A DNA stretch of 64,000 nt, from assembly GCA_944324345.1 (NCBI GenBank), contig CALUVT010000002.1:372001-436000 (forward strand), in the 5' to 3' direction. This document shows positions 139 to 29,509 of this stretch, piece by piece (the stretch's first letter is position 1; every line of letters starts with the position of its first letter). Source of the DNA: Candidatus Gastranaerophilales bacterium (GTDB lineage: Bacteria; Cyanobacteriota; Vampirovibrionia; Gastranaerophilales; Gastranaerophilaceae). Below the pieces are notes generated by a model, which saw only the letters and a list, made by a program, of their open reading frames with translations, had not been told where the DNA came from and made no database searches. Made by a program: the position numbers and the translations under genes.

Positions 139-854
139 TAATCCATTTTCCAACCGTCTGCAACTATTTTAGAAAAACAACCTCGTCCATAGGAGTTATA
201 TTCACCTGTCAAACATTGTTCAAATTGCTGCTCAATAGTGTCATATAAATAAATGTCGTAGTGCTCAGCAACTTTCCCATCACTATAAAGTTGAATATAA
301 AACATATCTCTACCAACAATATTGGGAGGAGCAGCACCATTGATATCAATATTCATATTCATATATCCATGATCCCCATTGTCTCGGTAACTAAACCAAT
401 TCTCAAAAACTGATATAGAAGCACCGCTAGCAAGTGAAACTGCAGCTTGTGGTTCTGAGACTACAAAATCAGTTCCATTTATATATTTATAACTTTCTGC
501 GAAACAAGGAGTTAAAGTTGTACCACAATCTTGAGCGACATTAAAATACGTCTTTAAAAAGTTACTTGAAGCACCTGCCACATTAAAATTAAATCTTGTT
601 TCATCAAGAGAAACTGCGTTACTATCATTAATTGCACGCTTCGCCGCTTGCGAAAGTTCTGTATATACCTTCTTGAGCTGGGTAACATAAACTGTTTTTT
701 GATGATTTGATATAAGTGTCGGCATTGTCATTGCTGCAACTACACCTATTATACCCAAGGTAACTAAAACTTCTGCCAAAGTAAAAGCATTAAACTTACT
801 CTGAAACATAATATCCGAAAACATCTTAAAAATAGGGAAAATAAATTTTTTCAT
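135..854 (-). CDS. Type IV pilin-like protein with FTLAEV prepilin motif
   Basis: A 239-residue protein with a class III (prepilin) signal: residues 23-45 read AFTLAEVLVTLGIIGVVAA, so prepilin peptidase should cut between Ala and Phe and methylate the Phe. The leader is long (about 23 residues) because of an extension MKKFIFPIFKMFS before the usual short leader. The body carries an amphipathic LKKVYTELSQA helix, four cysteines and the segment DINGAAPPNIVGRD that recurs in the other pilin-like genes here (positions 26820 and 45988). A strong ribosome binding site GAGGAG lies 7 bases before ATG. It is 30 bases downstream of the isochorismatase-like gene and is probably the last gene of the same operon. 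Likely role: pseudopilin or minor pilin in an envelope fibre. The exact partner system is not visible. Confidence 0.85.
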   Translation of the reverse strand: MKKFIFPIFKMFSDIMFQSKFNAFTLAEVLVTLGIIGVVAAMTMPTLISNHQKTVYVTQLKKVYTELSQAAKRAINDSNAVSLDETRFNFNVAGASSNFLKTYFNVAQDCGTTLTPCFAESYKYINGTDFVVSEPQAAVSLASGASISVFENWFSYRDNGDHGYMNMNIDINGAAPPNIVGRDMFYIQLYSDGKVAEHYDIYLYDTIEQQFEQCLTGEYNSYGRGCFSKIVADGWKMDY

Positions 855-26819: not shown

Positions 26820-27572
26820 CTAAAACTTAATCGGATAATCTTTTGGGAATTTCCATCCGTTGCGTTGAATTAGCAATCCGCACTTATGGGTACCCATATT
26901 GTTTCCAACTTTGCACCAGTTATTCCTTATACTTTCTGTTGTAGCCGAAAAATCACCGTCATTTTCGGATCCACCAACGTGGAAGCCCTTAATTGGTTTG
27001 CCACGGTCACCATATCTCAAATAGTTAGATAAAGAAAAAACAAATACATCCTCACCCATAACAGAATGTCCTTTTTGACCGTTTACATCTGCTACAAATG
27101 TTACATATTTCCACTCACGGCCTCTATCATAGGTTACCATAACTAAGAGAGTACGTCCATCGTTCAACAAATATTTTGGAGAAACCCTAAAATTCCCACC
27201 AATAGACAGTTCCTCTTGCCCGGGATATCGCCACACGTAGAAATTACCATCAGAACCTGCAAAACATGGCATAGTCCCTTTATTTTTACCATTATGTCCT
27301 TTACACTCTGTCAAATTTATATACGGTGCAAAATACTTCGCTACAAAATTCGCACTTGAAAGAGTATAATCCCACTCTTCATAAGTTCCGTTATCTGCTT
27401 CACTACGTTTTATGAGATTATACAAATCTGAATAAGTCTTTTTAAATCCTTCTTCAATCACTTTCTTTTCATAATTAGAGATAACAGCAGGTATTGTTAA
27501 TGCTGCTACAACTCCTATCACACCCAAAGTTATCAATACTTCCGCTAACGTAAATGCAAAAAACTTTTTCAT
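26820..27572 (-). CDS. Type IV pilin-like protein with short prepilin leader
   Basis: 250 residues from MKKFFAFTLAEVLITLG. The frame stays open upstream to about 27656, but ATG 27572 has ribosome site GGAGAG and a strong promoter just before it. Prepilin peptidase should cut after Ala7, before FTLAEV. The body has the FKKTYSDLYNLIK helix, six cysteines and the segment DVNGQKGHSVMGEDVF shared with the other pilin-like proteins. Likely a pseudopilin or surface fibre subunit. The upstream in-frame stretch matters because of the poly-C tract at 27670; see that entry. Confidence 0.87.
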   Translation of the reverse strand: MKKFFAFTLAEVLITLGVIGVVAALTIPAVISNYEKKVIEEGFKKTYSDLYNLIKRSEADNGTYEEWDYTLSSANFVAKYFAPYINLTECKGHNGKNKGTMPCFAGSDGNFYVWRYPGQEELSIGGNFRVSPKYLLNDGRTLLVMVTYDRGREWKYVTFVADVNGQKGHSVMGEDVFVFSLSNYLRYGDRGKPIKGFHVGGSENDGDFSATTESIRNNWCKVGNNMGTHKCGLLIQRNGWKFPKDYPIKF

Positions 27573-27608
27573 TTTCTCTCCGCTATTAATGTGATAATAT
27601 ACATTACT

Positions 27609-27636
27609 ATTATAGCGGATTTTGTTTATTTGGCAA
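27609..27636 (-). promoter_or_regulatory. Pilin promoter
   Basis: Minus-strand TTGCCA (27631-27636), 16-base spacer and a perfect TATAAT (27609-27614). Start near 27602, leader about 30 bases. The poly-C tract lies 34 bases upstream of the -35. Confidence 0.75.
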
Positions 27637-27661
27637 CACTCAAAAATGCTTACCAACAGCC

Positions 27662-27727
27662 TTAAAGTGCCCCCCCCCCGAAATAATTGAATAACTCTTT
27701 ACAAAACTCGTCAAAAATCTTTTTCAT
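27662..27727 (-). CDS. Possible 21-residue coding frame containing the poly-G run
   Basis: An ATG overlaps the stop codon of the radical-SAM gene (TGATG), so ribosomes finishing that gene could restart here. The frame reads MKKIFDEFCKELFNYFGGGAL and stops. The three glycines and first base of the Ala codon are the run of ten G. One extra G (or two fewer) would remove the stop and continue in frame through the whole pilin at 26820. Whether this peptide is made is unknown. It may be only the read-out of an unstable tract. Confidence 0.3.
   Translation of the reverse strand: MKKIFDEFCKELFNYFGGGAL
27670..27679. repeat. Homopolymer tract of ten C (ten G on the coding strand)
   Basis: Ten consecutive C in otherwise very AT-rich DNA, between the radical-SAM gene and the pilin promoter. 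Such tracts slip during replication and often switch genes on and off. It could also be an assembly or sequencing uncertainty. Confidence 0.85.
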
Positions 27728-29001
27728 CACTTGCTGCTCCTATCTTCCAAATATTCTACAATTTCCTTCATCGAATATATATCTTCTACCACAAAAAATT
27801 CTTTTTTTGTAGATTTTTTTACATAATCAAGAGTTTTGCCATCCAAAAAATCTTGCGAATAAGGTCTTAGCATAACAGACGGAATTATTACCAAATCCGA
27901 ATCAATATCTTTCACAGTTCTTATCAAATCATCCGTAGTAATAAGTCCTGCAACAGTAATATCATCCCCCCAATAAGAAGACTTTACGGGATTTACACTC
28001 ACTTCCAAGTTCTCAATATTATTCAAGGTTTTTGCAATCTTTTCAATAGCATACTTTGCAGCGTAACTTGTTGCAAAAGAAATTTTCAAAGGTTTTGCAA
28101 GTTTTTGGGGTAGTTTTCTTGATTTAAAATCATCAAGCAATAACCTTATAGAACCAACTCCATCTTCCAACTGTGAAAAACTTCCATAATATTTAGAAGG
28201 TGGAATTTCTCGTTCAGCCAGAAGAAAAAATTCATCAGAACAACACACCCTCTTGTATTTGGACGCTATATCAATAGTCTGTTCCGCACATTTTTTATCA
28301 ACCCTTTTTAACCCTTCTTTTCTAAACTGGGTAACTCCAACAGGAACTATAGCCGTTGAAAGAACCGTATTTTTAAGTTTCGCTAAATCAGACAGCGTCC
28401 TTTCAAGTTCTTTACCGTCATTGAACCCCGGACAAAGAACAATTTGAGCATGAAACGGGATTTTATTTTTACGGAACCAATCCAAATTTTCAAGAGCTTT
28501 GCCTGCATTGGGGTTTCTTAACATCTTTACGCGTAAATCGGGATTAGTTGTATGCACTGAAACATAAAAAGGACCCAAATGCATTTTTTTTATACGTTCT
28601 TTATCTTTCTCGGTTAAATTTGTAAGCGTTATGTAAGTTCCTTGAAGGTAAGAAAGCCTATAATCATCATCTTTTACATACAAAGTATCTCTTAAACCCT
28701 TTGGCTGTTGATCAACAAAACAAAAAATACATTTATTCAAACACGGCTTAACCCTGTCAAATACCGCACTTTCAAATACAATACCCAAATCTTCATCAAA
28801 ATCTTTTTCTATTTCAATAACTTCAGTTTGACCATCAAGCTTTTTTACTTCAATAGTAAGAAGTTCTGATTTACATAAAAAATTGTAATCAATCATATCA
28901 GACATTTTTGTATCATCAATTGATATAATCTCATCTTTTGGCTGAATTTCAAGTTCCTCAGCTATAGAACCTTTCAAAACTTCACTAACTATTGCCGGCA
29001 T
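27727..29001 (-). CDS. PDZ and radical-SAM protein of the DUF512 type
   Basis: About 424 residues. An N-terminal PDZ-like domain (MPAIVSEVLKGSIAEELEIQPKDEIISI) leads into a radical-SAM core with cluster cysteines in PCLNKCIFCFVDQQP (CX3CX2C), and a C-terminal DUF512-type domain. This arrangement is conserved in cyanobacteria and clostridia; its reaction is not established. The frame could begin at TTG 29022, but the PDZ domain starts at ATG 29001, so I use that. It overlaps the end of the PadR gene by 17 bases, so the two are coupled. Confidence 0.85.
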   Translation of the reverse strand: MPAIVSEVLKGSIAEELEIQPKDEIISIDDTKMSDMIDYNFLCKSELLTIEVKKLDGQTEVIEIEKDFDEDLGIVFESAVFDRVKPCLNKCIFCFVDQQPKGLRDTLYVKDDDYRLSYLQGTYITLTNLTEKDKERIKKMHLGPFYVSVHTTNPDLRVKMLRNPNAGKALENLDWFRKNKIPFHAQIVLCPGFNDGKELERTLSDLAKLKNTVLSTAIVPVGVTQFRKEGLKRVDKKCAEQTIDIASKYKRVCCSDEFFLLAEREIPPSKYYGSFSQLEDGVGSIRLLLDDFKSRKLPQKLAKPLKISFATSYAAKYAIEKIAKTLNNIENLEVSVNPVKSSYWGDDITVAGLITTDDLIRTVKDIDSDLVIIPSVMLRPYSQDFLDGKTLDYVKKSTKKEFFVVEDIYSMKEIVEYLEDRSSK

Positions 29002-29509
29002 TATCTTTTTCCAATCCTTCAACTATTGTTATAAAATTTGAAAAATCACAAATTGTATTATCTAATACAATTTTTTGATAAAAATTAGTATGCTTATATT
29101 CATCTGCCAAAATATCTTGAGCATCTTTTCTAAACTTTGTAGCAAGAGCCTTTATAGAAAAAAACAGTCTTCTCTTTTCGTCAACAGACAAAACATCCGC
29201 ACAAGCTATCTTTATTCTTGCATTTGAATAAAATTGTAAAGGATTATCACTTAAATCCTCTAAAATTAAACGGGATAACTCAGCCCTGCCCTGATTAGTA
29301 ATTGAATAATATACAGATAATTTTCCCCCGTCAGAAAGCATTTTTCTTGAAGACAAATATCCCTTTTCAACTAACCTCTTCAAAGCCGGATTTAAAGCTC
29401 CAAAACTCGGTTTAGTATACGGTGCAAAGACATCCTCTATATGTTTTTGCACAGCATACATGGTCAAATCACGCTTTAATAAAACATACAAAATCAAAAG
29501 TTCTGTCAT
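28985..29509 (-). CDS. PadR-family transcriptional regulator
   Basis: 174 residues. The winged helix spans 1-90: LLILYVLLKRDLTMYAVQKHIEDVF, then PSFGALNPALKRLVEKGYLSSRK and the wing SVYYSITNQGR. A C-terminal helical dimerisation segment follows. PadR proteins usually repress stress or efflux genes and often regulate their own operon. It has no ribosome site. TGATATATT at 29519-29527 is an extended -10 only 9 bases before ATG, suggesting its own near-leaderless transcript inside the operon. The overlapping DUF512 gene is the likely co-expressed partner. Confidence 0.85.
   Translation of the reverse strand: MTELLILYVLLKRDLTMYAVQKHIEDVFAPYTKPSFGALNPALKRLVEKGYLSSRKMLSDGGKLSVYYSITNQGRAELSRLILEDLSDNPLQFYSNARIKIACADVLSVDEKRRLFFSIKALATKFRKDAQDILADEYKHTNFYQKIVLDNTICDFSNFITIVEGLEKDNAGNS

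Follow-up and report, generated by a model that had tools for sequence, protein, structure and literature searches.

Can the length of a single homopolymer decide whether a pilin is made? The question is raised by a locus in the genome of Candidatus Gastranaerophilales bacterium (host genome G000, gut, 1.76 Mb), where ten consecutive G residues lie between a radical-SAM gene and a pilin-like gene on the minus strand. The window, i.e. the whole stretch of 64,000 nucleotides that was analysed, and the features described below are summarized in Table 1.

The focal tract and its pilin

Table 1. Features of the focal locus and of the surrounding window (positions are those of the window).
Feature	Position	Strand	Remark
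Pilin-like gene, 250 aa, own ATG (MKKFFAFTLAEVLITLG...)	26820..27572	-	N_methyl match at G000:C2:399495-399572
GGAG ribosome-binding site of the focal pilin's own ATG	27578..27581	-	From sequence
Tract-to-pilin segment	27573..27668	-	Open in pilin frame; holds the promoter-like site
Promoter-like TTGCCA-16-TATAAT below the tract	27609..27636	-	0.9 such sites expected in region shuffles
21-codon leader frame, MKKIFDEFCKELFNYFGGGAL and stop	27662..27727	-	Overlaps radical-SAM stop; start RBS-backed by script
G10 tract (C10 on plus strand)	27670..27679	-	Only G/C run of at least 8 in the 64-kb window
GGAG ribosome-binding site of the leader frame	27737..27740	-	From sequence
Radical-SAM DUF512 gene, upstream of the leader	27727..29022	-	Overlaps leader start
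Second N_methyl pilin match, no G-run	726-797	-	G000:C2:372726-372797

Three overlapping G8 matches were counted in the window, compared with a mean of 0.17 in shuffled sequence, and none of 100 shuffles reached three. An earlier note had placed the ten G in a 21-codon minus-strand frame opened by a TGATG, and this was borne out in every checkable detail: the leader ATG (27727-27725) lies inside the TGATG (27729-27725) that ends the DUF512 radical-SAM gene, and the TAA stop (27664-27662) is found two codons beyond the run. The leader ATG and the focal pilin are in frames offset such that 11 or 8 G would join both, and the segment between tract and pilin is open in the pilin frame, in line with the proposal that a run of either length would fuse leader and pilin. 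The tract had also been put 34 bases above the -35 element of the pilin; the TTGCCA-16-TATAAT site was indeed found, with the tract 33 nt above it.

The focal gene has the N_methyl motif, the short basic leader and the G/A before FTLxE that characterize type IV pilins and pseudopilins. Its Pfam N_methyl match (21.3 bits) is over the cut-off, TIGR02532 scores below its own cut-off, and the matches to pilin models are weak. When the named genomes were searched with the focal pilin protein, no relative was obtained; the pilins are too diverse. No match was obtained by megablast of the focal locus against phages, or when viral contigs were scanned for the tract core.

Tract-led pilins in the host genome and its relatives

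The anatomy of the focal locus is found about 46 times in the host genome, and across the genus it occurs in hundreds of copies. About 50 G-runs are present in the host (51 listed), 44 of them of exactly ten bases, and about 46 lead into different pilin-like genes; genome-wide there are 72 prepilin N_methyl matches. The median best-paralog identity of the host tract pilins is 46%, and the repertoire is thus diverse. Genomes of the same genus contain 0 to 176 runs of at least nine bases, with up to 169 of exactly ten, and members of the order outside the family contain 0-6 runs. The named relatives are Candidatus Gastranaerophilales bacteria and a record titled Fusobacterium sp. CAG:439. Missing mismatch repair was ruled out as the reason for so many tracts by MutS1 matches in 32 of 32 genomes (above the cut-off in 31); MutS1 being present, slippage rates may be lower here.

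Some loci deviate from the common pattern. One host pilin leader (L399, G000:C1:380550-381350) has an interrupted C-run (CCCCCTCCC) and is apparently a decayed tract. The ends of host contigs C1 and C3 (L081 and L096) share an identical sequence ending in T9G9, probably an assembly-breaking repeat; contig ends at tracts would be an ambiguous sign of polymorphism, the leaders being repeated sequences. In G002 (C4:50-80 kb, L251-L260) a gene cluster of surface-polysaccharide type carries G-runs of 9-15 bases, a broad spread compared with the sharp ten elsewhere.

Pilins are out of frame at the usual tract length

Frame relations were assessed for 258 tract-pilin pairs, 241 copies being scorable, with starts picked by a script from RBS and codon rules and all ON and OFF states read from the assembly consensus. 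Paralogs are not independent, and the significance of the tests is therefore overstated. When the tract-to-pilin segment comprised at least 15 codons, the pilin frame was open in 143 of 147 cases, as against 1.7% for the other two frames. No start codon occurs between run and pilin in 138 of the 258 pairs, and in host pilins that lack a run the leader is mostly of the ordinary short kind, its ATG lying a few codons ahead of the cleavage motif. It follows that the run must be read through to make most of the tract pilins.

A length of 10 was found in 203 of the 241 scorable copies. Only 18 copies were in frame, and 222 belonged to the class that needs 8 or 11 bases; according to the script nearly all C-sense copies also need 11. 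Three flank arrangements (88, 80 and 26 copies) lead to an identical net offset at length 10, suggesting selection on the offset. G-sense copies almost always meet a stop within five codons in the length-10 frame, a pattern less clear for C-sense copies. G029 and G002, with usual lengths of 9 and 12, contributed few copies, and there the early stop is located in the 9/12 frame. As in poly-G/C phase variation, a homopolymer of at least nine bases thus lies inside a reading frame, and its length sets the frame.

The same run also occurs in non-pilin genes, among them an acyltransferase, glycosyltransferases and a radical-SAM gene. All seven distinct loci of this kind in G000, G004, G023 and G026 fall in the ON-at-10 class, two having length 11 in G004, and the frame class is mixed for such genes in G028 and G009. 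In one host locus (L099, G000:C3:50100-53100) the run core is inside an acyltransferase-3 gene that is in frame at C10.

Tract length differs between close homologues

The earlier note had proposed a check of tract lengths in related genomes, and they turned out not to be uniform: of 20 matched tract pairs, nearly all of them G004/G026 orthologues and a few sharing a tract or being paralogs, 7 differed in length. One matched pair with flanks 99.8% identical had lengths 10 (OFF) and 8 (ON), and two pilins had 10 (OFF) in G004 and 11 (ON) in G026. Lengths 9, 10 and 11 were observed within one frame class in G028. In the family, length accordingly varies between close homologues in a way that toggles the frame, and the fact that orthologues differ in the DNA itself favours slippage at the DNA level over a programmed shift at the RNA level. 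In Campylobacter jejuni, G8 tends to gain bases and tracts of G11 or more to lose them, whereby tracts are held at G9-G10 (PMC8355987); a bias of this type would explain the fixed usual length here.

A probable default-OFF switch

We consider it probable that a large prepilin repertoire undergoes phase variation by slipped-strand mispairing at these loci, with OFF as the default state. The interpretation builds on the observed anatomy, on the conserved frame relation, on length differences between orthologues and on homologues both in and out of frame. According to this model an RBS-backed start would open a short leader through the ten-base run, and a stop would follow almost at once, so that no pilin would be made from that start. 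Replication slippage to 11 or 8 bases would put leader and pilin into a single frame. Prepilin peptidase would then remove the leader together with its poly-glycine or poly-proline stretch, and in that case the frame alone would matter. As a small slip would turn ON any one of dozens of diverse pilins, cells would be expected to differ in small pilin sets. Switching within a population, its rate and a surface phenotype are what we infer from this arrangement. On the other hand, some observations count against a default-OFF phase-variable system: a single length, 10, prevails more uniformly (203 of 241) than any does in Campylobacter, the MutS1 of the genus should lower slippage, a default-OFF state does not by itself explain why the 8/11 class is near-universal over the 9/12 class, and the focal copy has a promoter, RBS and start of its own.

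Competing explanations

An assembly error in the run had been named as the main alternative; an error in assembly or base calling, with a true length of 11 everywhere, has become very improbable indeed. Homopolymers are error-prone and a length of 11 would bring most pilins into frame, but independent assemblies agree on 10, lengths 8, 9, 11 and 12 are found as well, and in the same genomes acyltransferase, glycosyltransferase and radical-SAM genes keep their frame at 10. It is also quite improbable that the tract pilins, as silent donors or decaying copies, are retained to recombine into expressed pilins and not to be expressed from their own start. Most of them are out of frame at consensus, and about 24 tract-free pilins have normal starts; each tract pilin nevertheless has its own RBS, start and open leader frame, 18 are in frame, and the tract-free relic with the broken-up run (L399) is the exception rather than the rule. 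Programmed slippage, in which an extra base from RNA polymerase or a -1 ribosomal shift at the ten-base run would give a steady fraction of pilin from unchanged DNA, appears unlikely. It would agree with the very uniform length of 10, with a +1 requirement shared by 194 copies across three flank arrangements and with an entry-frame stop right behind the run, as at many programmed sites. However, the required shift varies by genome (+1 or -2 at length 10; in the few copies sampled, lengths 9 and 12 in G029 and 12 and 13 in G002), so that a constant shift conserved between species is not found. Furthermore, orthologues differ in DNA length and thereby toggle the frame, non-pilin genes carrying this run are in frame at a length of 10, and programmed slippage would be needed for C-runs as well as for G-runs.

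For the focal pilin itself, its own promoter and ATG might be the sole source of expression, the mini-frame being an untranslated or regulatory remnant there, a possibility to which we give some weight while doubting it. TTGCCA-16-TATAAT, GGAG and ATG all lie below the tract, and paralogs have conserved a similar promoter block. The upstream leader has nonetheless kept its RBS, its open frame and the frame class of the family, and what fits the focal copy does not fit the 138 copies that lack any start below the tract. RBS-backed starts below the tract occur in 19 of the 258 pairs, the focal copy among them. Since the putative promoter, RBS and ATG there probably also allow tract-independent expression, slippage at the focal copy may govern just a long-leader form of the pilin. 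The idea of phase-variable pilin output or leader is well supported for the family, in which the coding sides are conserved, sister lengths differ and some homologues are in frame, and is weaker for the focal copy with its own RBS-backed start.

About half of the host tract pilins contain TTGTAA-16-TATAAT followed by the inverted repeat GTGAT-N7-ATCAC. Counted over paralog leaders, e.g. L069, L115 and L291, the block is present in about 30; it falls within the coding stretch that separates tract and pilin and is conserved at the DNA level. An AGT serine codon is nearly fixed in the promoter-like block of the host paralogs, compared with a background of 23%, which suggests a DNA element. The block is possibly a leaderless or regulated second start.

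Strand polarity of the runs

Over long stretches the G-runs stay on one strand regardless of gene direction, with about two switches per genome. G023, for example, has 89 runs and two strand switches, and all runs listed for contigs 1 and 2 of G026 are on one strand, including those in oppositely read genes. The host G-run is on the G-rich strand, albeit with a noisy skew, and the one-strand pattern was not seen in G002. Two host regions, C1:35-211 kb and C2:210-305 kb, are tract-free over 177 and 95 kb and are located at points where the polarity switches. Tract orientation appears to follow replication, a link drawn indirectly from the polarity.

Tentatively, no larger collection of homopolymer switches may be known than that of this genus. 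Each gene family would have its own default, OFF with an immediate stop for pilins and ON for glycan enzymes, and G-runs would be confined to one replication strand, with C-runs appearing in genes encoded on the opposite one. If so, the run would have to be created, or kept at ten, by a fork-polar process, and uncultured gut Gastranaerophilales would vary their surface pili by dozens to more than 100 independent slippage switches. The apparent frame-encoded default and the apparently replication-following orientation make it possible to test how length is held and how fork direction relates to slippage. Automatic annotation of these genomes will miss or mis-start many of the pilins. Our literature search found no paper tying Gastranaerophilales to pilin phase variation.

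Comparison with known systems

The closest parallels are homopolymer-based. The phasome of C. jejuni likewise has intragenic poly-G/C runs of about 9-11 bases at many loci, with a usual length near 9-10 and ON/OFF control by frame (PMC8355987, PMC6321876); a Campylobacter survey reported 53% 9G and 26% 10G (PMC6321876). In that survey there were 5-81 phase-variable genes per strain and the ON share was near neutral, whereas up to about 170 runs are found here. In contrast to C. jejuni, most of the runs sampled here are in prepilin leaders, 84% have one length, 7% are ON, the default frame stops immediately and the orientation is strand-locked; C. jejuni is also without mismatch repair, whereas MutS1 is present in this Gastranaerophilales genus. 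Neisseria pilC and lgt resemble the present loci in having poly-G/C runs inside reading frames and in the targets, pilus genes and glycosyltransferases (PMC5953494). Neisseria, however, has about 15-19 poly-G runs per genome, and its pilin variety comes mainly from pilE/pilS recombination and not from dozens of tract-led pilins as here. Programmed ribosomal frameshifting (e.g. of the dnaX type) and transcriptional slippage share with these loci a slippery run and an entry-frame stop within a few codons, but here the required shift is inconstant between genomes and the DNA length varies between orthologues.
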